From Parabacteroides gordonii MS-1 = DSM 23371 (lineage in GTDB: Bacteria > Bacteroidota > Bacteroidia > Bacteroidales > Tannerellaceae), in the NCBI RefSeq assembly GCF_000969825.1, contig NZ_KQ033919.1, positions 2,221,088 through 2,285,087 of the forward strand: a stretch of 64,000 nt of DNA, written 5' to 3'. The notes below the pieces were generated by a model. It was not told the DNA's origin and searched no databases. It saw only the letters and a program-made list of their open reading frames with translations. Both the position numbers and the translations under genes were made by a program. Shown here in pieces: positions 6,521-18,911 of the stretch. How positions within the stretch are numbered: position 1 is the stretch's first letter; every line of letters starts with the position of its first letter.

Positions 6521-6597
6521 TTTATACACAAAGTTTTCAGAAAACATCTGTCATCTGTCACACAAACAGATAAAAGACTATAGATTAAGACATAAAG

Positions 6598-6627
6598 GGT
6601 TGCAGATAAAATAAAACATCTGCAACC
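6598..6627 (+). terminator. Hairpin downstream of the sialic acid operon
   Basis: Perfect 10-bp inverted repeat GGTTGCAGAT / ATCTGCAACC with a 10-nt A-rich loop, 78 bp after the esterase/mutarotase stop. No T-run follows, so it may stabilise the mRNA 3' end or terminate weakly rather than act as a standard intrinsic terminator. Confidence 0.4.
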
Positions 6628-6744
6628 GCATCTGCCACCTGTCACACAGCAAACATCTACAGCAACAACTAACCGGAATATAGTATACTACTAATTGTTA
6701 AGTGCCGACCTACTAGCACAAAAGTCCTTACCTACTAAAACTAC

Positions 6745-6832
6745 CCTGTACAGGATAATCCACCAGGCTGTACAGGCTGGAAAGTTAAGGTGTACAGTAT
6801 AATCAGCCAGGGTGTACACCCTAAAAAGACTT
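6745..6832. repeat. Four 22-bp repeats centred on TGTACA
   Basis: TGTACA occurs at 6747, 6769, 6791 and 6813, exactly 22 bp apart, inside four degenerate 22-bp units. Units 1 and 3 resemble each other most (TGTACAG-TATAATC type). The first and last cores are extended palindromes (CCTGTACAGG, GGGTGTACACCC). The array is bracketed by the inverted pair AAAACTACC (6737-6745) and GGTAGTTTT (6837-6845). It fills the gene-free stretch 6521-6870 between convergent transcription units; nothing else was recognised there apart from the hairpin at 6598-6627. Confidence 0.7.
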
Positions 6833-6870
6833 AGTCGGTAGTTTTGAATTAGTTTCTCCCTTAGTTAATA

Positions 6871-7605
6871 CTAAAAGATACCGAAGTCCGCGTTAGTTGG
6901 TAAAAACCTCAGGATAAGTCCCTCTCCTCTTTCCGTTATTATCTCTACAGAAGGATCCTCTTTTAAATATAAGCGAATATTCCTGACAAAGACATCTAAG
7001 CTACGCGAACTATAAAAGTCAACCTTTCCCCAAAGCTTATCGAGTATATCGGTTCGTCTGACAAGTTTTCCTTTTTCCTCATATAGCATCCATAAGATAT
7101 TCGTCTCACGGACAGACAACTTTATATGTTTATCCCCCAATTGCAAATACTGATGTTTGACATGGAATATATAAAGTCCCAGAGGATACGTATCCTGATT
7201 AACTGATATCACTTCATTAACCGGATCATTCTCCCCTACCCGTTTTAATATTCCGCGAATATGAGCATCCAATTCTTCACACAAATAAGGTTTTCGTATG
7301 TAATTATCAATCCCGAACTGATATCCCCGTATCAAATCCTGAGGGGAAGTTTTAGCCGTAGCAAATAAGATGGGCGTCTTTCTATCTCCCTGGCGGATCT
7401 GTGCAACAAAGTCCTCCCCTGACATTTCCGGCATTTCAATATCAGAAACAATCACATCCGGTTTAAATGAGACATATGCCTCCAGGCCTTCCTTTCCATT
7501 TGATGCAACAAAAACCTCATAACTTCCGGTCAATTCCAGACTTCCTTTCACTATAAAGGACAAAGACTCATCGTCTTCCACAAGAAGTAATTTTATTTTG
7601 CTCAT
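6871..7605 (-). CDS. OmpR/PhoB-type response regulator
   Basis: DNA-binding response regulator of 244 residues. The receiver domain (residues 3-118) has the acidic pair E10-D11-D12, phosphoacceptor D55 (VIVSDIEMP) and the conserved Lys in IRKPY. The winged-helix effector domain (about 140-238) carries the usual KLSVRETNILWMLYEEKGKL-type start and the RRTDIL...RSLDVFVRNIR recognition region. It is the second gene of a minus-strand pair with the kinase 41 bp upstream. The pair points away from the peptide-export operon at 9.1-13.9 kb, and ATAACAT direct repeats in the shared upstream region are candidate binding sites. The role in controlling peptide export is inferred from position. Confidence 0.92.
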   Translation of the reverse strand: MSKIKLLLVEDDESLSFIVKGSLELTGSYEVFVASNGKEGLEAYVSFKPDVIVSDIEMPEMSGEDFVAQIRQGDRKTPILFATAKTSPQDLIRGYQFGIDNYIRKPYLCEELDAHIRGILKRVGENDPVNEVISVNQDTYPLGLYIFHVKHQYLQLGDKHIKLSVRETNILWMLYEEKGKLVRRTDILDKLWGKVDFYSSRSLDVFVRNIRLYLKEDPSVEIITERGEGLILRFLPTNADFGIF

Positions 7606-7646
7606 AATGATTAGTTTTGTGCTTGCTCAAATATAGGAAAAGGAAA

Positions 7647-8984
7647 TCAAATAAACGATACTTTAAGGGGCATATATAAAACAAATTTTGAACCCTGTCC
7701 TTTCAAGCTCGATAAAGAGACCGTTCCACCGTGTGCATTCATCACCCGTTTCACATAATTAAGTCCCAATCCAAACCCTTTTGCCCCTTTTCTACCTACG
7801 GCTGCTCCACGTTCAAATTTCTCAAATATCTTTTCTCTATCTCTTTCTGAAATACCGAAGCCATTGTCGCTAACTTCTATAAATAACTGATTATCGCTTG
7901 AATGGCAACAAATATCAATTGCTACAGAATCACCGGAATATTTAATCGCATTATCAATCAAATTGCTGACTGCATTCGTTAAATAAACAGGGTCGGCAAT
8001 AATATGAGTACTTTCTAAATCTATATCGATTTTAAAACTGACAGGCTTTTTAGTTTGAATGGAAAACTTATCGACCAACCCTTGAATCATGTTTGACAGA
8101 TCCATAATTTTAGGATCCAATATCAATTTCTTTTGTTCAAGATATGCTATAGTCAATATCTTATCGACTAAAGCCTGCAAATTCAATACTTGTGCCATTG
8201 CCGTATCTGAAAACTTAGACCGCAGTTCCGGATTTTTATCAAGAACTCCTTTTCCCCATTGGTCAACAGCCATATAAATCGTACCTAACGGAGTTTTCAT
8301 ATCATGCACCAACGCATGAGAGAAGTCATCACGTAGTTGGGTAAGGCGACGCTGGGTGAAAATGACCCTCAATTCATAAACAAAACAAATGATAATCAAC
8401 AAAAACATTAAAACTGAAACAACAAGCATCCAAAACATTTGACTCAAAACCAACGGCATAGTGATAGAGAATATCGCTTGAACTTTTGTATCATTTACGA
8501 TTGGAACTTCTTTACTTTTTATTCCCCGCAAAGAGCTATCCCCCACCGAATCCAAGACTTTCATCGAATCCTGATAACATAAATAATATTCCATTTCTAT
8601 ATTCTGTTGTTCCAACATAGCATTGTAAATACTATCTAATACAGACAAGTCGAAATTATTATTTTCGAAAACCATCAGGCGTTGAGAAGCCTCATTTTGC
8701 AAGGCGAGCAACCCCTCACTCTGTATTTTATCATTATCCAAAAAAAATTTAAACGAATCTCCTTTTTTCTCCGGACTCTTTTCAGTCTGTTGATCCGAAT
8801 ATAAAAAACGTTTGTCTAATTCCTTTTGTACAGCCTCTACCAATATTATATTAAGTCTTTCCTCCAAATCCGTTTTTTGAATATGATACATATTATGTAA
8901 CCAAAAAAACTGAGAGAGCAATAAGACTATGACCGCAATAATAAAAGTAGTCCATATATAATTTATTCTCATACTAGTGAGCAT
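7647..8984 (-). CDS. Membrane sensor histidine kinase
   Basis: Sensor kinase partner of the adjacent regulator, 445 residues. TM1 is about residues 10-30, the extracytoplasmic sensor region about 31-178 (charged, no recognised domain), TM2 about 183-205. HisKA follows with phosphorylated H227 (FSHALVHDMKTPLG), then HATPase_c with N box LIDNAIKYSG, G1 DNGFGIS and G2 GFGLGLNYV. The sequence may start at Met1 or Met5 (8972). The architecture resembles the Bacteroidetes RprX/RprY class. Because it is divergent from a peptide precursor and a dedicated exporter, the sensor region could detect an exported peptide, but nothing in the sequence proves that. Confidence 0.92.
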   Translation of the reverse strand: MLTSMRINYIWTTFIIAVIVLLLSQFFWLHNMYHIQKTDLEERLNIILVEAVQKELDKRFLYSDQQTEKSPEKKGDSFKFFLDNDKIQSEGLLALQNEASQRLMVFENNNFDLSVLDSIYNAMLEQQNIEMEYYLCYQDSMKVLDSVGDSSLRGIKSKEVPIVNDTKVQAIFSITMPLVLSQMFWMLVVSVLMFLLIIICFVYELRVIFTQRRLTQLRDDFSHALVHDMKTPLGTIYMAVDQWGKGVLDKNPELRSKFSDTAMAQVLNLQALVDKILTIAYLEQKKLILDPKIMDLSNMIQGLVDKFSIQTKKPVSFKIDIDLESTHIIADPVYLTNAVSNLIDNAIKYSGDSVAIDICCHSSDNQLFIEVSDNGFGISERDREKIFEKFERGAAVGRKGAKGFGLGLNYVKRVMNAHGGTVSLSSLKGQGSKFVLYMPLKVSFI

Positions 8985-9033
8985 TTAAACGTAAAACATT
9001 AATAATTAAAAACTTCCTATGTTAATAAAAAAG

Positions 9034-9068
9034 ATAACATAAATCATAACATACAGATAACATAACAT
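9034..9068. promoter_or_regulatory. ATAACAT direct repeats, candidate response-regulator site
   Basis: ATAACAT occurs at 9034, 9046, 9057 and 9062. The first three are 12 and 11 bp apart, about one helical turn, the arrangement used by OmpR-family regulators. They end 16 bp before the -7 element of the peptide-export operon and lie between it and the divergent kinase gene. Function is inferred. Confidence 0.5.
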
Positions 9069-9083
9069 CAACTCCATGAAATC

Positions 9084-9091
9084 TATTTTTG
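9084..9091 (+). promoter_or_regulatory. -7 element of peptide-export operon promoter
   Basis: TATTTTTG matches the Bacteroidetes -7 consensus TAnnTTTG. No TTG is seen at the usual -33 distance, as expected of an activator-dependent promoter. Because the start of transcription would fall near 9098, the upstream ATG at 9076 cannot be the translation start of the peptide gene. Confidence 0.55.
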
Positions 9092-9132
9092 TGGTAAAAA
9101 TAATAATTAATCAACACAAACACTTAGTAAAC

Positions 9133-9258
9133 ATGAGAACAAATAACAAAATGACAGAATTAAGCGAAGAAGAGTTGACAGACATTTTTGCAGGACAATG
9201 GGTGTTAATTTATTATATGGAAAACGGTACTCGTTGCTTAGAATGGGTTAAAATTTGA
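9133..9258 (+). CDS. Small exported peptide precursor, double-glycine-type leader
   Basis: A 41-residue peptide whose N-terminal part fits a double-glycine leader: L at -12, E at -8, L at -7, I at -4 relative to the presumed cleavage after AG21 (ELSEEELTDIFAG). The predicted core is QWVLIYYMENGTRCLEWVKI, 20 residues, aromatic, with one Cys. Processing after AG rather than GG is less usual. It is 4 bp upstream of the HlyD gene and is the first gene of the export operon, so it may be cargo, a pheromone for the divergent kinase, or both. The start at 9133 is preferred over 9076 because a promoter lies between them. No homologue was recalled. Confidence 0.65.
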   Translation: MRTNNKMTELSEEELTDIFAGQWVLIYYMENGTRCLEWVKI

Positions 9259-9262
9259 AACG

Positions 9263-10432
9263 ATGAAACTACTCCCCTCTCCCCTAATCACCAACAGTAT
9301 CGATGCCTATATAGACAAGCATCCTACTAAATCCCAGAAAATATACTGGGTAGTACTTTTTGCACTAACGGCAGCTATCATTTCGCTGCCGTTAGTTTAT
9401 GTAGATGTATCGGTACAGGATGCAGGAATAATCCGTCCTGCCGTAGAAAAGACTGAGATAAAAGCGAGTATAACAGAATTCGTGGATTCTGTATACACCA
9501 AAGAAGGATTGAAAATCAGCAAAGGCGATACTATATTAACCTTCCGCTCGTCAAATGCAAATTACAAAATCAATTATCATAAAGAACGTTTACGTGATTT
9601 ACAGGAACATATAAACGATCTGAAGGAACTGGCCAAAGGCAAACGTCCGGATATATTTTCTTCTGATACCCGCCGGAAAGAATACAGTTACTTCATCAAA
9701 CAGCTGGAAGAATATAAAACAACTTTACAAAAATCAATCAAAGACTATCAACGTAACAAGGCGCTTTATGAAAAGAAAGTAATTGCAGCCGAGGAATATG
9801 AAAAGTACCAGTACGAATATAACAAAATCAATAATGAACTGGCTTCATTAAAAGATAATCAAATCAGTAAATGGCAAACCGACCTGAATAGTTATACAAA
9901 TTCTTATAATGAGATATTCTCTTCTTTAAATCAGGAAATTAAAGACAAAGAGCTTTACGTTATCACGAGTCCGGTAAGCGGAACACTCGACTATTTCAGA
10001 GGAATCTATAAAGGAAGTAATATACAAACAGGAAACTCTGTTGCTATTATCAGTCCGGACTCGACTCTATGTTGCGAAATCTATGTTACTCCCCGAAATA
10101 TCGGATATATCCATATCGGTATGCCGGTAAGTATACAAGTCGAGTCGTTCAATTATAACGAATGGGGAACCATAGAAGGATTGGTAACGGAAATATCTTC
10201 GGATTTCCTGACAGATAATAATAACAACGCATTTTATCAGGTAAAATGCAAATTGGAAAAAGACCATCTGATACGTAAAAACGGGGTACAGGGAAAACTC
10301 AAAAAAGGAATGACTGTGATCAGCCATTTCAAAATCACACGGCGCTCCCTGTTCGATCTGTTATATCAGAAAATGGACGACTGGGCTAACCCGACACAAT
10401 ACAACAGCAACTCAATCACACAAGCTCTATGA
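9263..10432 (+). CDS. HlyD-family secretion adaptor
   Basis: Periplasmic adaptor subunit of a type I secretion system, linking the inner-membrane ABC exporter to TolC. 389 residues: short cytoplasmic N-terminus, one TM at about 29-48, lipoyl/barrel half (AGIIRPAVEKTEIKA), long coiled-coil hairpin about 95-220 rich in K, E, Y and N, then the second barrel half starting at VITSPVSGTLDYFRG and a C-terminal beta domain. Its stop overlaps the exporter start by 4 bp, indicating translational coupling. Confidence 0.9.
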   Translation: MKLLPSPLITNSIDAYIDKHPTKSQKIYWVVLFALTAAIISLPLVYVDVSVQDAGIIRPAVEKTEIKASITEFVDSVYTKEGLKISKGDTILTFRSSNANYKINYHKERLRDLQEHINDLKELAKGKRPDIFSSDTRRKEYSYFIKQLEEYKTTLQKSIKDYQRNKALYEKKVIAAEEYEKYQYEYNKINNELASLKDNQISKWQTDLNSYTNSYNEIFSSLNQEIKDKELYVITSPVSGTLDYFRGIYKGSNIQTGNSVAIISPDSTLCCEIYVTPRNIGYIHIGMPVSIQVESFNYNEWGTIEGLVTEISSDFLTDNNNNAFYQVKCKLEKDHLIRKNGVQGKLKKGMTVISHFKITRRSLFDLLYQKMDDWANPTQYNSNSITQAL

Positions 10433-12588
10433 ACCATAAAATAAAAATCAAACAACACGACATCACAGATTGCGGTGCTGCTTGTCTGGCATCCATCGCA
10501 GCCCATTACGGCTTAAAGTTCCCTATTTCCCGTATTCGTCAATATGCTTTCACGGATAAAAAGGGAACTAATATCTTAGGTATAATCGAAGCCGCTAAAA
10601 AACTGGGGTTGGAGGCGAAAGGAGTCAAAGGCCCTTTCGAGTGCCTGACAGAGATACCGAAACCCGCTATAGCACATGTTGTAGTTAAAGAAGTGTTGCA
10701 ACATTTTGTCGTTATCTATAAGGTAACCGACAAATATATTCTGATCATGGATCCGGGAGATGGAAAACTTCATAAGAAATCGCATGAGGAATTTAAGAAA
10801 GAATGGACAGGTATTCTCGTTCTGCTACACCCTGCTGAGACATTTCAAAAAGGCAATCTCAGAAAAAGTACGCTGAAAAGTTTCATTGAATTATTACGTC
10901 CCCATAAAAGCGTAATGGGACAGGCATTATTCGGTGCTTTGGTTTATAGTATACTGGGGCTATCCACTGCCATCTATGCAGGAAAAATCACGGACTACGT
11001 TTTAGTTGACCGGAATATCAACCTATTGAACCTGATGGGAATTCTGATGATACTTATCATATTACTCCGGACATTTGTCGGTTCAATGAAAAGCATTTTA
11101 GCATTAAAAACAGGACAACGTATCGATGCATCGTTAATCCTGGGATATTATAAACATTTACTAACCTTACCGCAACAGTTTTTTGATACGATGCGGGTTG
11201 GTGAAATCATTTCCAGGGTCAATGATGCCGTTAAAATACGCAACTTTATTAATAATGTTTCATTGGATTTAGCAGTGAACTTACTTATCATGATTTTTAC
11301 CCTCATCGTCATGTTCGTTTATTCATGGAAGTTAGCAGCTATTACCCTGGTTTCTGCCCCTCTATTTATCCTTACCTATGTACTTTTTAACAGGCTGAAT
11401 AAAAAATACCAGCGCAACATCATGGAAAGTAGTGCCGAGTTGGAATCACAACTGGTAGAATCCTTAAACTCCATTGCCACGATTAAGCGTTTCGGTATTG
11501 AATCATTCGCCAACCTGAAAACAGAGATCAGGTTTGTACACCTTTTAAAAAACACATATACCAGTGCTTACGGAGCAATCATTGCCAATGGAGGAATTGA
11601 ATTTATCTCGACCAGTATAACCATTGCTGTGTTATGGGCAGGAAGCAATTTCGTAATTGATAAAGAGATCACTCCCGGAACCCTTATGGTATTTTATTCC
11701 CTGGTCGGTTATATCCTCACGCCTGTAGGGAAACTAATAAGTTCAAACCAGACCATACAAGATGCGATGATCGCGGCAGATCGCCTTTTTCAGATTATGG
11801 ATTTGGAAAGGGAACAAGATGAAACCAATAAAATCATTTTAAAACCGGAAATGGTCGGGAACATTCAATTTGAGAACGTAGCTTTCCGGTATGGCTCCCG
11901 CAAGCAGGTATTCGAATCTTTAAATCTCTCCATCCATAAAAGCGAAACAACCGCAATTATCGGGGAAAGTGGTTCGGGAAAAACTACACTGATTTCCCTG
12001 ATACAGAATTTATACCCTATTCAGACAGGATGTATCCGAATCGGAGATTACAACATCACTCAAATAAATAACGAAAGTTTACGACAAATTGTAGGAACAG
12101 TTCCACAACAAATCGAACTATTCGCCGGATCGATCATTGAAAATATTGCGTTAGGAGACTTTGAGCCTGACATGCAAAAAATCATGCAGTTATGTGATCA
12201 GCTAGGTATTAAGGATTTCATTGAAAAACTGCCCAACGCTTATCTTACACAGATAGGGGAACATGGAGTTTCCCTGTCCGGCGGAGAAAAGCAACGGATC
12301 GCTATTGCACGTGCTTTATACAAGAATCCGGAAATACTGATATTCGACGAAGCAACATCTTCGCTGGATTCAATATCTGAGAAATATGTAAAACGAACGC
12401 TTTCCGCACTGGCAAAAGAAGGAAAAACGATCATAATAATAGCCCACCGGCTAAGTACGGTAAAACATGCAGACACTATCATCGTTCTGGAAAACGGCAA
12501 AATGATGGAAAGCGGGACTCACGATCAGTTAATACACACGGAGGGAATTTACTGCAAATTATGGAATGAACAATTTAACCAGATATAA
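10429..12588 (+). CDS. C39-peptidase ABC exporter (PCAT)
   Basis: Bifunctional exporter, 719 residues, that cuts double-glycine leaders and pumps the mature peptide out. The N-terminal C39 protease has catalytic C15 (DITDCGAACL), H92 (QHFVVIY) and D108 (MDPGDG). A six-helix transmembrane domain spans about 155-450. The nucleotide-binding domain has Walker A GESGSGKT (512-519), signature LSGGE (616-620), Walker B ILIFDEA (D640, E641) and H673 (AHRLS). All catalytic residues are present, so it should be active. The four precursor genes at 9.1, 14.4, 16.5 and 16.7 kb all carry leaders suited to it. Confidence 0.95.
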   Translation: MNHKIKIKQHDITDCGAACLASIAAHYGLKFPISRIRQYAFTDKKGTNILGIIEAAKKLGLEAKGVKGPFECLTEIPKPAIAHVVVKEVLQHFVVIYKVTDKYILIMDPGDGKLHKKSHEEFKKEWTGILVLLHPAETFQKGNLRKSTLKSFIELLRPHKSVMGQALFGALVYSILGLSTAIYAGKITDYVLVDRNINLLNLMGILMILIILLRTFVGSMKSILALKTGQRIDASLILGYYKHLLTLPQQFFDTMRVGEIISRVNDAVKIRNFINNVSLDLAVNLLIMIFTLIVMFVYSWKLAAITLVSAPLFILTYVLFNRLNKKYQRNIMESSAELESQLVESLNSIATIKRFGIESFANLKTEIRFVHLLKNTYTSAYGAIIANGGIEFISTSITIAVLWAGSNFVIDKEITPGTLMVFYSLVGYILTPVGKLISSNQTIQDAMIAADRLFQIMDLEREQDETNKIILKPEMVGNIQFENVAFRYGSRKQVFESLNLSIHKSETTAIIGESGSGKTTLISLIQNLYPIQTGCIRIGDYNITQINNESLRQIVGTVPQQIELFAGSIIENIALGDFEPDMQKIMQLCDQLGIKDFIEKLPNAYLTQIGEHGVSLSGGEKQRIAIARALYKNPEILIFDEATSSLDSISEKYVKRTLSALAKEGKTIIIIAHRLSTVKHADTIIVLENGKMMESGTHDQLIHTEGIYCKLWNEQFNQI

Positions 12589-12599
12589 TTGAAGAAACA

Positions 12600-13913
12600 A
12601 TGCGTATCATACTAGTATATATCACTTTAGGACTCTTGGTTTCATGGCCTTGCAAAGCACAAAAGAAATATACGTTGCAGGAATGCATAGAACAAGCTTT
12701 ACGATCTAATACAGACATAAAGCGGCAACGTGTACAGGTAGATAAGCAAGCGATCGAGACTGAAACCCAACGTTTCAGCCGGTTACCGAATCTAAATGCC
12801 GATGCGACACAGAAGTTCGATTTCGGACGCTCATTAAACCGGGAAAACACATTTGACGACAGCAATTCACAAAGCAGCTCATTCTCTTTGAGTATGGAAT
12901 TACCGATCTTCACCGGATTTAAAATATCCAATACGATAGCACAACATAAGCTGGAATTAAAGATAGCCGGGGAGGATCTGAAGAAAATACAAAATGACAT
13001 CAGCCTACAAGTCGCGACAGCTTATTACCAAGTCCTCTTGAATAAAGAAATAGCAGCCATCGCTCAAATGCAAATCGAGCTTACCCGTGAACAACAAGAT
13101 GTGACCCGCATCCTCGTTTCACATGGCAAAGTTGCTGAATCACAAATATTGGATATAGAGGCACAGCTAGCCAATGATGAATTATCTGCGATAAAAGCAA
13201 AAAATACATTACGTCTTTCAATGGTAGATCTGATCCAGTTATTAGAAATAGATCAGCCTGAAACATTCGATGTCATGCAGGAAGATTCTGAAGAAATTCT
13301 TCCCTTACTAAGAAAACCTGAAGATATATATCTGATCTCGGAACAAATCATGCCTCAGATAAAAAGTGTGCATTTGGCAATAAAAAGCCGGCAAAGATCA
13401 GTCCAGATCGCTCAATCGGACTATTACCCCACATTATCATTATTAGGTGGACTAAACAGCGGTTACTACCATTTCAGTAATACGCAAAATCTATCGTTCA
13501 ATGACCAGTTAAAAAATAACCTGCAAAAAACAATCTACGTTACCCTACGTATCCCTCTGTTCAATCGTCTGAGTACACGCAATAACGTCAGAAAAGCCAG
13601 AAAAGAGTTAGAAGATAGTCGTCTGATCGCCGAAAATACGAGTAAGGCACTATATAAAGAAATACAGAAAGTATGGTACGATGCTCTGTCGGCGCAGGAA
13701 AAGTATCACTCTACAGCAAAAGCCGTCGTCGCCAATAATGAAGCTTTACGATATGCCAAAGAGAAATATGCAAATGGTAAAAGTACTGTTTATGAATATA
13801 ATGAAGCCAGAATGAAGTTGGCCAACAGCCAATCTGAACAGGCTCAGGCAAAATATGAATATCTGTTACAAAGATATCTGCTTGCTTTTTATGCAGGCGA
13901 ACCAATACGTTAA
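12600..13913 (+). CDS. TolC-family outer-membrane export channel
   Basis: Outer-membrane factor completing the type I exporter with the upstream HlyD and PCAT genes. 437 residues, signal peptide to about residue 20 (CKAQ), then two OEP repeats, each with long alpha-helical stretches (YTLQECIEQALRSN start is typical; ATAYYQVLLNKE and KALYKEIQKVWYDA are the equivalent helices). It starts 11 bp after the exporter stop and ends the four-gene export operon; the HTH gene begins 22 bp later in the same direction and may be co-transcribed. Confidence 0.92.
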   Translation: MRIILVYITLGLLVSWPCKAQKKYTLQECIEQALRSNTDIKRQRVQVDKQAIETETQRFSRLPNLNADATQKFDFGRSLNRENTFDDSNSQSSSFSLSMELPIFTGFKISNTIAQHKLELKIAGEDLKKIQNDISLQVATAYYQVLLNKEIAAIAQMQIELTREQQDVTRILVSHGKVAESQILDIEAQLANDELSAIKAKNTLRLSMVDLIQLLEIDQPETFDVMQEDSEEILPLLRKPEDIYLISEQIMPQIKSVHLAIKSRQRSVQIAQSDYYPTLSLLGGLNSGYYHFSNTQNLSFNDQLKNNLQKTIYVTLRIPLFNRLSTRNNVRKARKELEDSRLIAENTSKALYKEIQKVWYDALSAQEKYHSTAKAVVANNEALRYAKEKYANGKSTVYEYNEARMKLANSQSEQAQAKYEYLLQRYLLAFYAGEPIR

Positions 13914-13935
13914 TAACCTCTTAATCCGATATATC

Positions 13936-14271
13936 ATGCAATTATTTGAATCCATCGATCGTGCACAACGAATACATCAATTTATTCGCACAGAATCAAC
14001 CGGTACTCCCTGCGAGTTTGCCCGACGTCTGGGTATTAGCCGCAGACAACTTTACTATTGCTTGGAAGAATTCAAAGAATTCGGGGCACAAATTATGTAC
14101 AACCGAATCAAAAATACATTTTATTACGCAAATAATTTCGAGTTTATATTAACAATAAGAACATCTCCGCTAAATTATCAGGAAAAAAAACATATATTTG
14201 GTGGAGAAGTTGAAAATAAATGGGACAGTGCAAATTCATTGCACTACACTAGTGTATCTTTGCTAATGTAA
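13936..14271 (+). CDS. Small HTH protein of the peptide locus
   Basis: A 111-residue protein with an N-terminal winged-HTH-like segment (about residues 4-60; core CEFARRLGISRRQLYYCLEE) and a short C-terminal tail from FILTIRTSPLNY of unknown role. It is a candidate transcription factor for the precursor genes. Start at 13936 is chosen because an upstream ATG (13855) lies inside the TolC gene and adds an unrelated hydrophobic stretch. Its last 44 codons are duplicated at 16269-16399, and the palindrome AGTGCAA-N5-TTGCACT sits inside the coding 3' end, so the gene carries regulatory DNA of the next transcript. Family not identified beyond HTH. Confidence 0.75.
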   Translation: MQLFESIDRAQRIHQFIRTESTGTPCEFARRLGISRRQLYYCLEEFKEFGAQIMYNRIKNTFYYANNFEFILTIRTSPLNYQEKKHIFGGEVENKWDSANSLHYTSVSLLM

Positions 14272-14369
14272 AAACAAAGAGACTTGCAAGTTACAGAAGT
14301 GTTTACAAGGTTCTCGATCACCTGTAAATATCGGGAAGTGGATATCGAAAAACTTTGAAAGAGTAGATA
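14141..14369 (+). repeat. Direct repeat copy A (HTH 3' end plus leader)
   Basis: About 229 bp alignable with 16269-16498. The coding half is nearly identical; the non-coding half keeps CTTGCAAGT and the block around ATATCGGGAAGTGG, TCGAAAA and GAGTAGA. It ends just upstream of the 48-codon precursor gene, so it carries that gene's promoter and leader. Confidence 0.85.
14227..14262 (+). promoter_or_regulatory. Palindromic operator plus -7 element, copy A
   Basis: AGTGCAA-ATTCA-TTGCACT (14227-14245), a perfect 7-bp inverted repeat, is followed 9 bp later by TATCTTTG (14255-14262), a match to TAnnTTTG. Both elements recur at 16356-16391. They overlap the end of the HTH gene and would drive the precursor gene with a leader of roughly 120 nt. 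Confidence 0.6.
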
Positions 14370-14388
14370 ATAATAAATTAAACTGATC

Positions 14389-14535
14389 ATGAATATTAAT
14401 TTAGAAAAAAATAATCTTATCGAACTGGAAGATTATCAATTAGAAGAAATAAATGGTGGAATCGCAGGACTTATTATCGGATGTATAGGTATTGCTGCTA
14501 TTTGCTACTATTTTGGTGATCACTCAGCCAGATAG
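14389..14535 (+). CDS. Double-glycine bacteriocin-like precursor, 48 aa
   Basis: The leader (1-24) ends in INGG with L at -12, L at -7 and I at -4. The 24-residue predicted core from I25 to R48 is hydrophobic, glycine-rich in its first half (GLIIG, a GxxxG motif, then C32-I-G), has two Cys (32, 39) and a short polar tail (GDHSAR). These are features of pore-forming class II bacteriocins. It stands alone after repeat copy A and is followed by an 11-bp-stem hairpin. It should be exported by the C39 ABC exporter 2-4 kb upstream. The double-glycine leader is clear; bacteriocin activity is inference. Confidence 0.8.
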   Translation: MNINLEKNNLIELEDYQLEEINGGIAGLIIGCIGIAAICYYFGDHSAR

Positions 14536-14547
14536 TGTTGACAATAA

Positions 14548-14581
14548 AGAGAAGTACCGATATTGAAATTGGTACTTCTCT
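14548..14581 (+). terminator. Hairpin after the 48-aa precursor gene
   Basis: Perfect 11-bp stem AGAGAAGTACC / GGTACTTCTCT with a 12-nt loop, 12 bp after the precursor stop. Only a weak T-tract follows, so it may act as an attenuator that keeps the downstream membrane genes lower than the peptide. Confidence 0.6.
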
Positions 14582-14673
14582 TATCAAGAATCTTACAAAC
14601 AGTTTCACAACATGGATCTAATACAGATTTATACCGACCAATGATAAATCGGCATTCTAATTATTCTTTAATT

Positions 14674-15204
14674 ATGATCGAAAAAACATTCAGTACGATA
14701 AAAATTAACCTATTAAGTATACCTTTTACTATATTGGCAATAGGACTAATATTTTCTCTTTACTTTCAACTCTTTGGAAATATCAAAGAAGAGATGAGTA
14801 AATTAAATGGACTTGTTGTATTCATTTCATTCTTTGGTTGTATAATTATACACGAGTTGATTCATGGCCTATTCTTTGCAAAATACGCTAAAGAGGGATT
14901 TAAGAATATTCATTTTGGCATTAAATGGAAAGTATTAACTCCGTATTGCCATTGTAATGAAAGCATTAAAGCACAACATTATCGTATTGCCATTCTTGCA
15001 CCTACAATATTCTTAGGATTCATACCCTTGATCTTTGGATTCATCTTTAAAGAAATAAATACCGTAGGATTAAGTACATTAATGATTATAGGAGGTATTG
15101 GAGATTTCATTTCTTTATGGATGCTAAAAGAATTAAACAAAGACAGTATGGTGATAGATCATCCCTGTAAAATAGGATTTTTCTATAGTAAATCAACTAT
15201 ATGA
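14674..15204 (+). CDS. DUF3267 zinc-protease-like membrane protein
   Basis: Integral membrane protein of about 176 residues with the zincin motif HELIHG (HExxH) in its second hydrophobic segment, and hydrophobic segments before and after it, including a C-terminal pair. This matches the DUF3267 family, distant relatives of site-2-type metalloproteases. Start is uncertain: 14674 or 14641; an earlier ATG at 14563 is inside the hairpin and is unlikely. It overlaps the next gene by 4 bp. In this setting it may process a peptide or a membrane protein, or take part in producer immunity; not shown by sequence. A decayed partial copy is at 18038-18130. Confidence 0.75.
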   Translation: MIEKTFSTIKINLLSIPFTILAIGLIFSLYFQLFGNIKEEMSKLNGLVVFISFFGCIIIHELIHGLFFAKYAKEGFKNIHFGIKWKVLTPYCHCNESIKAQHYRIAILAPTIFLGFIPLIFGFIFKEINTVGLSTLMIIGGIGDFISLWMLKELNKDSMVIDHPCKIGFFYSKSTI

Positions 15205-15554
15205 AAAAAAGCTACTCTACACGTGCAAAACTGCATCTCTACTTTTTTAAAAGTACTTTAGAGATCGCTTTAGTATGTCAATTGGCTGGAACTTTATTCC
15301 TATATCTTTCTACGCTGTTAGTTGACAAGACGAATACCTCAACAAGTCCGGTTCTCTTTTTCATTCCTTTCGGTTTATTTCTCGATCTGATATATAAAGA
15401 GATCGCTCGTAAAGAGAACTATTATTTTTATTATAACCAAGGAATTAGTAAAGTTGAACTATGGCTAGTAGCTATTTGTAGCTGGTTGACATTACTGATA
15501 ATCATTAATTTAACAATCAAACTATGTGTGAATGTCTGGAAGTGGATAGTGTAA
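15201..15554 (+). CDS. Small membrane protein paired with ABC ATPase (copy 1)
   Basis: 117 residues with hydrophobic segments at about 22-40, 46-65 and 84-110 and a strikingly conserved middle, LIYKEIARKENYYFYYNQGISKVELW. The equivalent protein at 50150-50509 keeps the same block (YFYYNQGISK). It overlaps the following ATPase by 31 bp, just as copy 2 does by 22 bp. It is probably the membrane half of a very small ABC transporter. No family was recalled. Confidence 0.75.
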   Translation: MKKSYSTRAKLHLYFFKSTLEIALVCQLAGTLFLYLSTLLVDKTNTSTSPVLFFIPFGLFLDLIYKEIARKENYYFYYNQGISKVELWLVAICSWLTLLIIINLTIKLCVNVWKWIV

Positions 15555-16189
15555 TTAAATCTTTTGGTGATAAAAACATACTAACAGACGTTTACCTCAA
15601 CTGCCAACCGGGCGACCGAATCGGTATTTTCGGGTGGAATGGTTCGGGAAAGTCTACTTTATTTGAGATCATTTTCGGAACAATGAACAGTGATAGAAGC
15701 TTTATCCGCATAGACGGAAAAGTACAAAAGAAACAAGCCTTCCGTTCCGGACAGATTGCTTACTTGCCCCAACATAACTTTTTGCCCCCGAATATACGAG
15801 TCGGGGAAGCAATAAGCCTGTATATTCATCAGAATGAAAGAGAACAGTTTCTCAATGACAAAAATTTGGCTTACATAAATTACTCCAAGGCAGAAGAACT
15901 CTCTGGAGGTGAGTTACGCTATCTTGAAATCAAGCTCATTTTATTTTGTTCCGCTAAATACATTCTGTTGGATGAGCCATTCAACGGAATTTCTCCTGTT
16001 TGTTGTGAATCAGTAAGAGAACTTATCCAAAAAGCCTCGCAATCAAAAGGTATTATTATGACAGACCACAATTTCAGGGAAGTCCATAAAATAGCTAATC
16101 GAATCTTACTTTTAGATCAAGGGTATTTAAAAATAATCCAAAACATGTCTGAATTAAGTTCTTACGGATATTATCCCATATCCGAATAG
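15524..16189 (+). CDS. ABC transporter ATPase (copy 1)
   Basis: 221-residue stand-alone ATPase. Walker A GWNGSGKST, Q-loop LPQHN, signature LSGGE followed by LRYLEIK, Walker B YILLDEPF, and a His switch in MTDHNFREVHKIANR. The last motif is shared word for word (DHNFREVHKIANR) with copy 2 at 50488-51147, and about half of all residues match by eye. It is translationally coupled to the small membrane protein. It is probably the energy subunit of a self-protection or export module in the peptide locus. Confidence 0.85.
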   Translation: MCECLEVDSVIKSFGDKNILTDVYLNCQPGDRIGIFGWNGSGKSTLFEIIFGTMNSDRSFIRIDGKVQKKQAFRSGQIAYLPQHNFLPPNIRVGEAISLYIHQNEREQFLNDKNLAYINYSKAEELSGGELRYLEIKLILFCSAKYILLDEPFNGISPVCCESVRELIQKASQSKGIIMTDHNFREVHKIANRILLLDQGYLKIIQNMSELSSYGYYPISE

Positions 16190-16268
16190 AGCTAACCAGC
16201 CGAATACGGATCAGCGGAAAAGACCGACATGTTACCTTAGGGCAAATAAGGAGACTTCCGATAACATC

Positions 16269-16399
16269 AAATTTATATTAACAATAAGAACCTCTCCACT
16301 AAATTATCAGGAAAAAAGCCATATATTTGGCGGAGAAGTTGAAAATAAATGGGAAAGTGCAAGTTCATTGCACTATAACCAGATATCTTTGCTAATGTA
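16269..16399 (+). pseudogene. 3' fragment of the HTH gene
   Basis: Forty-two codons plus stop that match the last codons of the HTH gene at 14141-14271 (reads FILTIRTSPLNYQEK...GGEVENKW...SLLM). The DNA-binding half is missing and no start codon precedes it. Most base differences are silent or conservative. It may have been kept because the fragment contains the operator and promoter of the two downstream precursor genes. The stretch 16190-16268 before it holds nothing recognisable. Confidence 0.8.
16356..16391 (+). promoter_or_regulatory. Palindromic operator plus -7 element, copy B
   Basis: AGTGCAA-GTTCA-TTGCACT (16356-16374) followed by TATCTTTG (16384-16391), with the same 9-bp spacing as copy A. 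Conservation of the arms while the flanks vary supports a protein-binding site. Confidence 0.6.
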
Positions 16400-16513
16400 A
16401 AAATGAAAAAAGCTTGCAAGTAATAAACGTATTTACAGATATCCGATAATCAAACAATATCGGAAAGTGGGTGTCGAAAAGCTTTAACAGAGTAGACTTT
16501 AAAATTTAAGAAA

Positions 16514-16672
16514 ATGAAAGAACTAGTATTACAGAGCCTCTCAACAGAGGATTTATTGAATTGTAATGGAGGTCATGTTCCTATGGCTTGGTATATGGAT
16601 AGTGATTCCATTGAAGCAAATGGAAGTTTTGCTAAAGGTTTTTGGTCTAGTTTATACAATTCATTGTTTTAA
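16514..16672 (+). CDS. Double-glycine bacteriocin-like precursor, 52 aa (peptide alpha)
   Basis: Leader 1-20 ends in CNGG with L at -12, D at -8, L at -7 and C at -4. The 32-residue core starts HVPMAWYMDS and ends GFWSSLYNSLF: aromatic, weakly amphipathic, with a GSFAKG (GxxxxG) spacing. It is 17 bp upstream of a second 52-codon precursor, an arrangement like two-peptide (class IIb) bacteriocins. The intact C39 exporter encoded at 10.4-12.6 kb is the likely processing enzyme. Two-peptide activity is inferred. Confidence 0.78.
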   Translation: MKELVLQSLSTEDLLNCNGGHVPMAWYMDSDSIEANGSFAKGFWSSLYNSLF

Positions 16673-16689
16673 CTATAAAAAAATAAGAT

Positions 16690-16848
16690 ATGGAGAATAA
16701 AATCAAATTAGCACCATTAAGCCAATATGAAATGATAACCGTAGAAGGAGGTAATCAGATGGCTGAAGATATGGGGAGTATGATGGGAGAAGCAGTAGGA
16801 AGAGCAATTAAAATGTTTCTATTTTGCGCAGCCATTTATGCACTTTGA
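16690..16848 (+). CDS. Double-glycine bacteriocin-like precursor, 52 aa (peptide beta)
   Basis: Leader 1-21 ends in TVEGG with L at -12, E at -8, M at -7 and V at -4. The 31-residue core has two consecutive GxxxG motifs (G29-S-M-M-G33-E-A-V-G37), the helix-helix contact signature of class IIb two-peptide bacteriocins, then a hydrophobic end (MFLFCAAIYAL). It lies directly after peptide alpha in one transcript and before a hairpin and two membrane-protein genes that could be immunity functions. Confidence 0.8.
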   Translation: MENKIKLAPLSQYEMITVEGGNQMAEDMGSMMGEAVGRAIKMFLFCAAIYAL

Positions 16849-16867
16849 ACAATATTAACAAAGCAAC

Positions 16868-16896
16868 GAAAGGGCAGCATATACTGTTGCCCTTTC
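16868..16896 (+). terminator. Hairpin between precursors and immunity candidates
   Basis: Perfect 9-bp stem GAAAGGGCA / TGCCCTTTC with an 11-nt loop, 20 bp after peptide beta. An AT-rich but not T-run tail suggests partial termination, giving more peptide than downstream membrane protein. Confidence 0.55.
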
Positions 16897-16913
16897 ATAA
16901 ATAATACACAATA

Positions 16914-17240
16914 ATGAAACAAACAAATAAAAACAATAGTATTTATTGGTTAGGGCTTTGTGGATTAACCATTCTTTTACAAAGAGAATTCAATATTCAT
17001 ACATATAATACTGTATGTTTATTGGTATTCCCTTCACTATATGTTATTACAACCTGGCATACAATACCCGATCTTTCCAAAAGGATACATCAAGCCATAC
17101 TCATCAGTCTTGTATCATTTTGTTTTTTCGGAGAGAAAACACTTATCTCTTTTATATTACCTTTTATAGCTAGCTTCGCATCTTTTGTAGTATATGCAGC
17201 CTTTGAAAGATATTGCAAGAAACAATCTAATCCAAATTAA
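16914..17240 (+). CDS. Small multi-span membrane protein, candidate immunity protein
   Basis: 108 residues, with four predicted membrane segments (about 11-23, 30-46, 58-72, 76-95) and a basic C-terminus (RYCKKQSNPN). No family recognised. It is the first gene after the alpha/beta precursor pair and is followed by a CPBP protease-family gene. Small multi-span proteins in this position are commonly the immunity partners of class II bacteriocins; that role is inferred from place and size only. Confidence 0.6.
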   Translation: MKQTNKNNSIYWLGLCGLTILLQREFNIHTYNTVCLLVFPSLYVITTWHTIPDLSKRIHQAILISLVSFCFFGEKTLISFILPFIASFASFVVYAAFERYCKKQSNPN

Positions 17241-17292
17241 CAAAAATTCGGATTCCTCTGTAAGTATCAATCTAACGCTACCTCAATCAAGT

Positions 17293-17976
17293 ATGGAACA
17301 CTCAATCAAGCCATCATCAAAGATCCAGGCATACGAACTGATAAAAACGATCTTCATTTATTGGGTTGGGACATTTATTTGTAAGATTGCAGTAAAAATA
17401 GCAGAGACATATATATTACCATATTATCATGTTCAGTCACCCAGCATAGAACTCGAAGAATTTCTAAGACATATCCAATCCATATTAGGAGCTTTTACTC
17501 CTTATTACATCATACTTATTGGTCCATTAATTGAAGAGGCCTGTTTCCGGCTAGGCCTTTCTTTTAAAAAAAGAGATATATTCATTGGAGGATACACACT
17601 ATTTGTTGTCGTATTTATTAATATCACAGGGAAGCTATATAGTTTAAACCTATGGAAAGTTTCCGTTCTTCTTGTTGTTCTTTTGGGAGTTATTTACCTA
17701 TACAAAAAAACAAAACAAGAGATATTTACGAAAGTAAGGAATAAGTATGGCAAAGGTATTACTTATTTATTTATCGTTCTATTCGCATTAATGCATATGT
17801 CAAATTTTTCTTCTTTTGAACTAGGACAACTATCTTACTTTGTATGCTATTTTTCATACCTTTTCATTATATCATACAGCATAACAAGACTACGCATCTA
17901 CAATGGATTCTGGTGGGGATATGGTTTACATGCAGTAAACAATGCTTTTGCAGTTTTAGCAACTTCAGGAATATAA
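17293..17976 (+). CDS. CPBP-family intramembrane metalloprotease
   Basis: Polytopic protein of 227 residues with the three CPBP (CAAX protease/Abi) motifs: EEACFR (EExxxR), FALMHMSNF (FxxxH) and HAVNN (HxxxN). CPBP proteins are frequent in bacteriocin loci of Gram-positive bacteria as immunity factors. An in-frame ATG at 17194 would add 33 polar residues and overlap the previous gene by 47 bp; 17293 is preferred because the membrane domain starts soon after. It is the last intact gene of the island. Confidence 0.82.
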   Translation: MEHSIKPSSKIQAYELIKTIFIYWVGTFICKIAVKIAETYILPYYHVQSPSIELEEFLRHIQSILGAFTPYYIILIGPLIEEACFRLGLSFKKRDIFIGGYTLFVVVFINITGKLYSLNLWKVSVLLVVLLGVIYLYKKTKQEIFTKVRNKYGKGITYLFIVLFALMHMSNFSSFELGQLSYFVCYFSYLFIISYSITRLRIYNGFWWGYGLHAVNNAFAVLATSGI

Positions 17977-18037
17977 TACTTCTTCATAACTGATTATCCA
18001 ATTTATTTATAAGGATATATTCCACGGAGAACATCTA

Positions 18038-18130
18038 TTCATTTTTGTATGTACAATCCACTGCTTATTTCCAAATCCCTATAGTAAATGAGGGCATTCA
18101 AACGTATTGCCATTCTTACACCTACACATA
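18038..18130 (+). pseudogene. Decayed fragment of the DUF3267 gene
   Basis: CGTATTGCCATTCTTACACC at 18103 and the bases just after it match 14983-15006 at all but one position. The preceding stretch (GTAAATGAGGGCATTCAAA) aligns with GTAATGAAAGCATTAAAG at 14953-14970, with a 12-bp gap. In frame it reads AFKRIAILTPT against HYRIAILAPT. It is a short remnant at the island edge; homology of the part before 18080 is doubtful. Confidence 0.45.
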
Positions 18131-18164
18131 TAAGTCTAAAATCGGACTAGGAATAAAGTCAAAA

Positions 18165-18911
18165 CTATTTCTCCCGATTTATATCATACCCAAACAACGC
18201 AAAATCCCCCAGGCACGGATCATCGGGAAATACTTTCTTCAAAGCTTCAGTAATCTCGACAGCCGTCTTAAGGGTGGCGACCTTTTGTTCGGTCAACCCT
18301 AATTCCAGGGATATCTGGTGAACATGGGTATCTAAAGGAATGATCAATTCATGCGGCTGGATCGAAGTACCCCAAATACCGAAGTCCACAATACCGTCTT
18401 TTCGAACCATCCAGCGGAGAAACATAGCCAGACGCTTACAGGCTGAAGTGCCGGTTAACACAGGAATACCTTGAATGCCACGAAAGACATCCTGTATTTT
18501 AGTCACCGGATTAGGGTAGGGACTGGCAGCCAAAGCCTCTTCCAATGAATCATACTGTTCGTAGACCGCTTTCAAACGGGCACACAACTGCCGCAGATCG
18601 GAATAGGTATAGAAGCGATAAAACGTATCCCGCTTACCTGGCTCCGGCTTACTAACAGGCCACTCGTTGTATCCCTCGTCCATAATCCACTGATAAGGGC
18701 CGGGAAGCATGGCATCATGCAGTTCGTTAGCCTTCCGCAGGATCAATTCCCGGCGTCCATAGGAGATCCAGGAAGTAAGAAAGGCCGATATTTCAATATC
18801 CTTCTTCTCCGTATACCGATGCGGAAACTGCACAGGGTCGTCCGGGATAAATGTACTTACATTATATTCTTTCGCCCACCGGCGAAGCTTCTCTTTTATT
18901 TGTTCATCCAT
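18165..18911 (-). CDS. TIGR02757 (DUF2400) family protein
   Basis: 248-residue cytoplasmic protein of unknown function, conserved in Bacteroidetes and Chlorobi. Recognised by its start (IKEKLRRWAKEYN), the ISAFLTSWISYGRRE block, the LDTHVHQISLELGL segment and the C-terminal DPCLGDFALFGYDI. The middle resembles helix-hairpin-helix base-excision enzymes, so a DNA or RNA base-lesion role is possible, in keeping with alkD two genes upstream. Its first 8 bp overlap the end of the RhuM gene. The AT-rich peptide island ends just beyond its 3' side. Confidence 0.88.
   Translation of the reverse strand: MDEQIKEKLRRWAKEYNVSTFIPDDPVQFPHRYTEKKDIEISAFLTSWISYGRRELILRKANELHDAMLPGPYQWIMDEGYNEWPVSKPEPGKRDTFYRFYTYSDLRQLCARLKAVYEQYDSLEEALAASPYPNPVTKIQDVFRGIQGIPVLTGTSACKRLAMFLRWMVRKDGIVDFGIWGTSIQPHELIIPLDTHVHQISLELGLTEQKVATLKTAVEITEALKKVFPDDPCLGDFALFGYDINREK

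Follow-up and report, generated by a model that had tools for sequence, protein, structure and literature searches.

Genetic organization of a candidate peptide-export island in Parabacteroides gordonii

We analyzed a stretch of 64,000 nucleotides of the genome of Parabacteroides gordonii MS-1 = DSM 23371 (hereafter the window; G000:C1:2221088-2285087 of a 6.79-Mb genome), which harbors an 11.6-kb island with a C39 peptidase exporter, a divergently encoded two-component system and four short genes for leader-bearing peptides, here named P1 to P4. A preliminary description of this DNA had proposed a bacteriocin or peptide-signalling island with its own sensor, exporter and immunity-like genes. 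Our analysis supports this interpretation as right in kind and refines it to a candidate signalling peptide, P1, together with bacteriocin-like peptides, P2 to P4.

The island spans positions 6521..18164 of the window, between genes that end at 6520 and at 18165, as delimited by comparison of the flanks with congeners. Within its coding span (6871-17976), a response regulator of the OmpR/PhoB type (6871..7605; Response_reg and Trans_reg_C domains) and a histidine kinase (HK; 7647..8984; HisKA and HATPase_c domains) are encoded on the minus strand and all else on the plus strand. The plus-strand genes begin with P1 (9133..9258, alternative start 9151), followed by an HlyD-type periplasmic adaptor (9263..10432), the C39 peptidase-ABC exporter (PCAT; 10429..12588), a TolC-type outer membrane channel (OEP; 12600..13913) and a small winged helix-turn-helix (HTH) protein (13936..14271). 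These five genes are closely spaced or overlapping and presumably form an operon, as would the further gene groups. P2 (14389..14535) precedes a DUF3267 zincin-type protein (14641..15204), a small hydrophobic protein with no family match in Pfam and NCBIfam scans (15201..15554) and an ABC ATPase (15524..16189), while P3 (16514..16672) and P4 (16690..16848) precede a second small hydrophobic protein (16914..17240) and a CPBP-like protein (17194..17976). The adaptor, the channel, the DUF3267 protein and the ABC ATPase were assigned by domain matches, and the open reading frames (ORFs) and domains of the exporter, HlyD, TolC, the divergent kinase and regulator, the HTH protein, the DUF3267 protein, the ABC module and the small protein were verified as first described.

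The assignment of the exporter draws on Pfam, NCBIfam, sequence motifs and a comparison with solved chains: it scores 541 with TIGR01193 (cut-off 523.85) and 126.6 bits with Pfam C39, which places it among the PCATs, and its closest solved chain is 4ry2. Its C39 domain is the sole one found in the genome. A strict leader pattern combined with an ATG start identified four short ORFs in the 64 kb, all inside the island and none in the other 52.7 kb of the window, compared with a mean of 0.1 and a maximum of 1 in 30 shuffles of the window; the four leader-bearing genes noticed earlier are real. The predicted mature peptides have 20 (P1), 24 (P2), 32 (P3) and 31 (P4) residues with 1, 2, 0 and 1 Cys, respectively. 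The earlier expectation that all would be cut after a double glycine (GG) holds for the leaders of P2 to P4, but the P1 leader terminates in AG.

A short peptide gene accompanies the divergent histidine kinase

Related loci were collected by scanning named genomes with the exporter, of which the best 80 of 348 relatives gave 79 loci, a set skewed to close relatives in which short contigs are common. Most counts given below rest on 46 of the 79 (L032-L077), whose exporters are 64-81% identical to that of the window. A minus-strand kinase match is present in 24 of these 46 loci. Our set of 24 P1 sequences comprises 22 loci with both HK and HlyD matches, L063 (HK match, no HlyD match) and the window, and the addition of L048 (P1 present) and L046 (P1 absent) gives 26 kinase-bearing loci.

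P1, a candidate peptide pheromone with the leader ..LSEEELTDIFAG and the core QWVLIYYMENGTRCLEWVKI, belongs to a family that tracks the kinase. A P1-type ORF lies divergent from HK in 25 of the 26 kinase-bearing loci (window included) and in none of eight kinase-free loci (L037, L038, L039, L054, L058, L070, L073 and L076; 8.7-9.2 kb upstream of HlyD each), and it adjoins the kinase in all 22 loci with both HK and HlyD matches. Fisher's test gave 6.5e-7 for the association (24/25 vs 0/8, before L048 was added). L052 (6.8 kb upstream, no kinase match, three regulator-type boxes) and short contigs were left out of the kinase-free controls. In L048, two P1-like ORFs (540 and 3887) and a box (450) were found, with no kinase in the flank first fetched; because a P1-like ORF and the box stood at the edge of that flank, a kinase just beyond it was suspected. 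The extended record does contain one, separated by about 0.1 kb from ORF 540, and the box lies between the two.

The cores of the family have 16-33 residues and usually the order strand, turn ([ND]G), strand, and the leader mostly ends in [FY]GG. F or Y occupies position -3 in 18 of 22 pattern-caught P1 leaders and in 8 of 67 other GG ORFs of the same loci (among them an HTH tail, from L032, and at least one ORF that is spurious, L033 10375), where N prevails. In a jackknife with hidden Markov models (HMMs), each built with the locus and its near kin left out, the P1 ORF ranked second in L040, L061 and L062 and first in the other 21 of the 24 loci, some of these first ranks being weak (10.1 bits in L072). 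The P1 core is nearly unchanged in the closest relatives, and QWVLIYYMENGTRCLEWV[KRN]I is retained as the core by metagenome homologs close to the window, with variants such as QWVLISYVEDGVRYFEWKHI.

Among other loci, the P1-type leaders at L066 2519 and L068 3262 are near-identical with unlike cores, and the metagenome protein P0023 joins the leader of one to the core of the other, a pattern that may correspond to pherotype switching. At L046 7336, a regulator-type box is followed by an 11-codon ORF resembling the start of a P1 leader, and P1 may have been lost there. Two further GG-peptide families, neither seen in the window, were noted: one, short and conserved, with a core that begins with Y.PP or similar and often has a CW end, recurs in kinase-bearing islands of other species (L042 6066, L045 5381, L049 6714, L053 7328, L069 7800, L071 6850, L072 3794 and L077 8019), and the other, also conserved, has a VAP..DG or VAPGPNG..CTEHGLP..L core (L041 715, L042 5841, L073 12223 and L077 7810).

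Phased direct repeats precede P1

A putative regulator-type promoter lies between the kinase and P1 (9035..9091, plus strand), with TAACAT repeats at 9035, 9047 and 9058 and the -7 box TATTTTTG at 9084-9091. The -7 box of Bacteroidetes has the form TAnnTTTG, and the consensus of the regions between kinase and P1 in our set of 24 is TAACMT-N5-TAACMT, with 11-bp spacing and the last repeat typically starting 26 nt before TAnnTTTG.

When one mismatch in 12 is allowed, repeats with 11-bp spacing occur in 18 of the 24 regions, and when two are allowed, in all 24; seven other spacings (8 to 15) gave 0-6 and 5-12 regions. At these two thresholds, 11-bp repeats averaged 0.3 and 3.0 over 200 shuffles, with maxima of 2 and 7. 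The distance of 26 between repeat and -7 box is found in 19 of 24 regions at up to two mismatches of 18 and in 23 at three, compared with 0-3 and 3-8 regions for the other distances tried. Over the 46 loci, composite sites at distance 26 (at most two mismatches) number 82, against 0-7 at 13 other distances. They precede P1 and, in many relatives, hlyD and other genes, and one lies within 260 bp upstream of 11 of the 67 other GG ORFs. Among L032-L077, 21 of 24 kinase loci, counting L046, have a composite site, and none of the eight kinase-free loci does; boxes also occur in eight loci without a kinase match (L041, L047, L048, L051, L052, L056, L064 and L074), in most of which the upstream flank is cut off.

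A single composite in the genome is perfect, the one at 9047-9091 before P1. The further composites are one with a single mismatch, which lies outside the window (G000:C1:1495445-1495489, L144), and two with two mismatches. We infer that the OmpR/PhoB-type regulator reads the 11-bp direct repeats.

Inverted-repeat promoter-like sites and a leader-like motif in the HTH protein

A second type of promoter-like site lies inside the 3' end of the HTH gene, before P2 (14228..14262, plus strand; GTGCAA-N5-TTGCAC-N10-TATCTTTG), its inverted repeat standing 10 nt before the -7 box. The pattern derived from the window matches again before P3 and P4 (16357..16391, plus strand); these two matches are the only perfect ones in the genome, and the three remaining have three mismatches each. 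Arms of 6 bp at distance 10, with at most one mismatch, were found in 18 of 39 HTH 3' ends (mean 0.34, maximum 2 in 50 shuffles), some of which look unlike the same site (e.g., L040, L075 and L076). Distances of 8, 9 and 17 gave 13, 12 and 7 of the 39, the high counts at 8 and 9 being expected if the repeat is longer than 6. The arms covary across loci (GTGCAA/TTGCAC, ATGCAA/TTGCAT, CTCTCA/TGAGAG and GTGCCA/TGGCAC), as expected of an operator that would be read by a diverging protein.

The two sites lie in a 143-bp block present in two copies with 87% identity (14132-14274 and 16261-16403). We rejected the second copy (16261..16403, plus strand) as a second HTH gene, as it is a 3' fragment that bears a promoter; because this promoter has a perfect inverted repeat, the duplication is best read as a promoter cassette. 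In metagenomes, the mosaics P0016 and P0021 fuse exporter or TolC pieces to an HTH 3' end, which suggests that the promoter-bearing segment recombines. The HTH fragment and these mosaics of exporter, TolC and HTH pieces could also indicate a decaying or silent remnant of an island. We consider this very unlikely, since the main ORFs are open and retain the C39, ABC and kinase motifs, the P1 core has hardly changed among the closest relatives, and the fragment, with its perfect promoter, has the look of a cassette.

The HTH protein itself carries near its C-terminus the leader motif LNYQEKKHIFGG, followed by a 21-residue tail. A leader-like motif near the end fits 31 of 39 HTH ORFs or fragments; among the eight that do not fit, L035 and L040 still have GG. 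The glycine codons vary, so the constraint acts on the protein level. To score these motifs we used a leader matrix derived from 78 peptide leaders (24 P1 and 54 of the 67 other GG ORFs), none of them from HTH proteins, and took the best site in each of 40 of the 61 HTH sequences. Three (P0013, L073 and L075 2634) have no [GA]G site near the end; 34 of the remaining 37 sites exceed the 99th percentile of the background, with a median of 9.3 against a 99.9th percentile of 2.96 for 3368 [GA]G sites in six-frame ORFs of at least 200 residues from the same loci.

HTH relatives are present in 55 of 393 sampled genomes of the order. In the loci opened from this sample and read by eye, GG is present in all eight complete HTH ORFs with this exporter within about 1.5 kb, seven of which were already among the HTH genes considered above, so that they are not an independent sample, and near the end in 10 of 22 other HTH ORFs. 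The HTH ORF of L229 is near a C39 segment and has no GG, and the near-identical homolog P0001 has DG where GG is expected. An AlphaFold2 model of the HTH protein places a winged HTH confidently at residues 2-64 and a short helix at 81-85, whereas confidence in the tail is low. Its nearest folds are HTH domains such as those of NiaR, CggR and BirA, none at E <=0.001, and alignment against the sequences of solved chains gave a single, unrelated match (E 0.095).

These data support well the presence of an export-leader motif in the HTH protein, which might hypothetically be cut by the C39 domain. A conserved secreted peptide in the tail was set aside as the main explanation, since the conservation derives partly from the overlapping promoter; the HTH protein of L035, with three residues after GG, also counts against it. 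As a tentative and rather doubtful extension, the HTH protein could be an export-coupled transcription switch: the 12 residues before the tail would be a true C39 leader by which the exporter docks or cuts the regulator. In this way exporter activity would be relayed to the promoters that drive the bacteriocin-like genes, forming, with P1, a two-input circuit.

Bacteriocin-like peptides and candidate immunity proteins

P2 is predicted to be a class IIb-like bacteriocin precursor, as it scores 25.7 bits with TIGR03949 (lactobin A/cerein 7B; NCBIfam cut-off 21.5), a cut-off missed by P3 (13.6), with no match for P1 and P4. The conservation of the precursors in related islands, proposed earlier as a check, was found for P1 (23 loci plus L048), P3 and P2, while P4 has a weak match in L088 alone. 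The homolog of P2 in L033 (34% identity) is again followed by a DUF3267 gene. A homolog of P3 (core HVPMAWYMDSDSIEANGSFAKGFWSSLYNSLF) in L069 is 38% identical; the second GG peptide after it, in the place that P4 has in the window, is without detectable similarity to P4. Metagenome homologs of P3 (65-67% identical) keep HVPMAWYMDSDSI. By its position, P4 is a possible partner of P3.

Each peptide group is followed by immunity-like genes. The small hydrophobic protein after P4 has a 32% identical homolog after GG peptides in L034 and is an immunity candidate, as is the CPBP-like protein; CPBP-like proteins are known as bacteriocin immunity proteins. The earlier designation of this protein as a CPBP protease is weak: the EExxxR motif and two later His are present, but Pfam makes no call and the score with NCBIfam CPBP_M949_0222 (46.4) is under the cut-off of 220.

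Could all four peptides be cell-cell signals, none of them killing? P3 and P4 have no family matches, and the CPBP-like and DUF3267 proteins might act as proteases in signal processing. Such a pure signalling island nevertheless seems quite improbable in view of the score of P2 above the class IIb cut-off, the immunity-like genes downstream of each group, and two peptides of the related island L040 that match Pfam Bacteriocin_IIc at (27.1) and below (23.8) its cut-off of 27.1.

The predicted 5' untranslated regions of P2 (14335..14369, plus strand; 30.2 bits) and P3 (16464..16498, plus strand; 29.9 bits) match the DUF805b RNA (RF02914), an orphan family of cis-regulatory RNAs, below its gathering score of 35.6, with E about 3e-5 each. 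Further sites precede GG peptides in L033 (13839 and 15838) and L034 (13253), and of two in L055 (16006 and 17412) one precedes a GG peptide (40 bits, above gathering) and one another ORF. In all, seven sites were found in four of ten sources searched, six of them before GG ORFs, and RF02914 was absent from L032, L040, L043, L045, L069 and L071; with six of ten sources lacking a match, it is unsupported as a general feature of these islands. A mir-279 match in L045 was taken as chance.

A proposed two-tier circuit

We propose that the island is a peptide-pheromone-controlled bacteriocin system with a two-tier circuit, a reading to which we assign a probability of roughly 0.6. P1, made with a double-glycine-type leader, would be cut and exported by the C39 ABC protein with HlyD and TolC and sensed outside by the divergently encoded kinase, which would activate the OmpR-type regulator. 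The regulator would bind the 11-bp repeats upstream of P1 and raise transcription of P1-hlyD-C39-tolC-hth, in a positive feedback. The HTH protein would act at the two inverted-repeat promoters, and thereby on the gene groups P2-DUF3267-small protein-ABC and P3-P4-small protein-CPBP. The bacteriocin-like peptides, P2 on the one hand and P3 with P4 on the other, would leave via the same exporter, and the DUF3267/ABC and small protein/CPBP genes would protect the producer. The sequence itself shows the genes, the leaders, the phased promoter-like sites and a P1 conserved along with the kinase, and from these the operons, the ligand role of P1, the pairing of proteins with sites, the sign of regulation, the killing and the immunity are predicted.

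Several observations weigh against this proposal. The loci were gathered via patterns of a single exporter, from the best 80 of 348 relatives, and the initial choice of P1 family members was made by eye. L046 has kinase matches without an HlyD match or a P1-like ORF, and the second P1-like ORF of L048 is away from the kinase. On the leader, non-P1 ORFs of the kinase-free loci L070 and L038 scored 18.8 and 18.5 bits, above the accepted P1 ORFs of L042 (17.3), L071 (15.5) and L072 (10.1); they were set aside by eye of the core, which is not strand-turn-strand in L070 and is an HTH tail in L038. The genomes of the kinase-free loci carry similar kinases elsewhere. With regard to the promoter, L034, L040 and L069 have no composite site at up to two mismatches, the repeats are divergent in L069, L071 and L072, and once up to three mismatches are allowed, composites in the genome come close to the control counts (19+24 vs 15+20). 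The family scans assigned neither P3 nor P4 to a bacteriocin family. Finally, the distance between P1 cores correlates with that between HK sensors at r 0.31, with the kinase at 0.33 and with the exporter at 0.36; partial Mantel tests of core and sensor gave p 0.12 given the kinase and 0.23 given kinase and exporter, the Mantel test gave p 0.60 in a non-redundant set of 21, and core and kinase given the sensor gave p 0.02.

Sensor-specific coevolution with P1 was looked for and not found, as the Mantel tests show no excess over kinase or exporter. Single pairs of loci differ: L066 and L068, with unlike cores, have sensors 75% and kinases 93% identical, and L033 and L034, with like cores, 79% and 79%. 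L043 and L044 share like cores, yet their sensors are 67% and their kinases 85% identical, so that sensors may simply evolve faster. The kinase is predicted from its sequence and model to have an N-terminal membrane helix and an external sensor of about 150 residues, and its fold-search matches span residues 207-443, only the cytoplasmic part.

The absence of sensor-specific coevolution, the silence of the fold search on the sensor region and the place of P1 as first gene of the exporter operon would fit a bacteriocin island whose kinase senses envelope stress or a foreign cue, with P1 as a further exported effector that is encoded beside the kinase by chance. We nevertheless regard this as unlikely: P1 tracks the kinase and not the exporter, being absent from all eight exporter-bearing kinase-free loci, its leaders have their own signature at -3, and its short strand-turn-strand cores are unlike the bacteriocin-like peptides.

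Genomic context and distribution

In four congener stretches fetched for comparison, no island genes stand between the two flanking genes, which are separated by about 25 bp to 2.3 kb (gaps between flank-gene matches of ~25 bp in G023, 1.1 kb in G020, 2.1 kb in G021 and 2.3 kb in G004), and blastn of the island region against these stretches matched the flanks only. Gaps read from match tables are 0.7 kb in G013 and 1.7 kb in G025, with larger ones in G016 (7.8 kb), G139 (13.7 kb) and G014 (14.5 kb). Among 38 genomes of the genus, including that of the window, the right flank gene is present in 22 and the left in 26. The island was accordingly either gained here or lost in these relatives, gain being the simpler reading. 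An ORF adjoining the right flank (18904-19923) encodes what we take to be a RhuM-like protein, and a scan of viral contigs for the island element gave no match.

By its 16S sequence, which is 92.5% identical to that of Parabacteroides sp. Marseille-P3160, 90.9% to Tannerella forsythia and 87.5% to Bacteroides rodentium, the genome probably belongs to Parabacteroides. Across 34 genomes of the genus, the nearest relative of the exporter is about 35% identical, while relatives in other families of the order reach 62%, and 81% among the best 80 of 348 in named genomes. Counting the exporter alone, relatives are present in 26 of the 393 sampled genomes of the order, its own included.

Relation to known systems and significance

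Class II bacteriocin loci of Gram-positive bacteria such as Pln, Blp and Com are pheromone-regulated. The island resembles them in the GG-leader pheromone candidate beside a kinase and regulator, a C39 exporter common to pheromone and bacteriocins, direct-repeat operators, and two-peptide bacteriocins with immunity genes. The P1 family has the three components of such pheromone systems, a GG-leader peptide beside a kinase and a regulator. In L062, the regulator match sits on the opposite strand. The Gram-positive systems employ an HPK10 kinase and a LytTR regulator, whereas the island has a HisKA kinase with an external sensor region and an OmpR/PhoB regulator, would need HlyD and TolC for export, adds the HTH second tier, and belongs to a Gram-negative phylum. 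In the long leaders of the NHLP and Nif11 types, a folded domain stands ahead of the GG cleavage site; in the island, a DNA-binding HTH protein takes the place of this domain. For HetC of Nostoc, a PCAT with no known substrate, the proposal has been made that the exporter cleaves a protein of which the N-terminal portion remains in the cell to act on a transcriptional regulator (PMC10986499); in the island, the exporter is encoded together with a candidate regulator that bears a GG-type leader.

Within Bacteroidales, bacteroidetocins are GG-leader peptides exported by a C39 ABC protein; their cores have 42 residues and four Cys, and their four-gene region includes one for a thiol oxidoreductase (Coyne et al., 2019; PMC6671954). 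The island differs in its cores of 20, 24, 32 and 31 residues with 0-2 Cys and in its regulatory circuit, and no thiol oxidoreductase domain was found among the island proteins scanned. In the RiPP clusters (ribosomally synthesized and post-translationally modified peptides) BGC5 and BGC3 of Bacteroidales, GG-type precursors likewise neighbor a two-component system or HTH gene, but these are radical SAM/LanC clusters without a C39 exporter, for which the available text claims no pheromone role (PMC10352776). Export of class II microcins such as colicin V relies on a C39 ABC protein, a membrane fusion protein and TolC, according to the same text (PMC10352776); the island differs in having the TolC gene inside, in its pheromone-like regulation and in its unrelated peptides. 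On the genes and sites compared here, we view the layout of the island as a Gram-negative counterpart of pheromone-controlled class II bacteriocin loci, built from other regulator families and with an added HTH tier.

Peptide quorum sensing is textbook biology of Gram-positive bacteria, and we found no pheromone-kinase-bacteriocin circuit described in Bacteroidales in the available text of the open-licence literature. The peptides of the island belong to a set that gene calling can miss. If correct, a regulator that bears the leader of its exporter would be a new coupling of secretion to transcription, and the HTH switch and P1 would provide inputs of exporter status and population density, a two-input circuit that would be the first in a Gram-negative phylum as far as the available open-licence literature shows. 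With candidates named for the signal, the sensor, the operator and the responder genes, the idea becomes testable; and since Bacteroidales are the dominant Gram-negative bacteria of the gut, the island gives a handle on how they may switch antagonism on.

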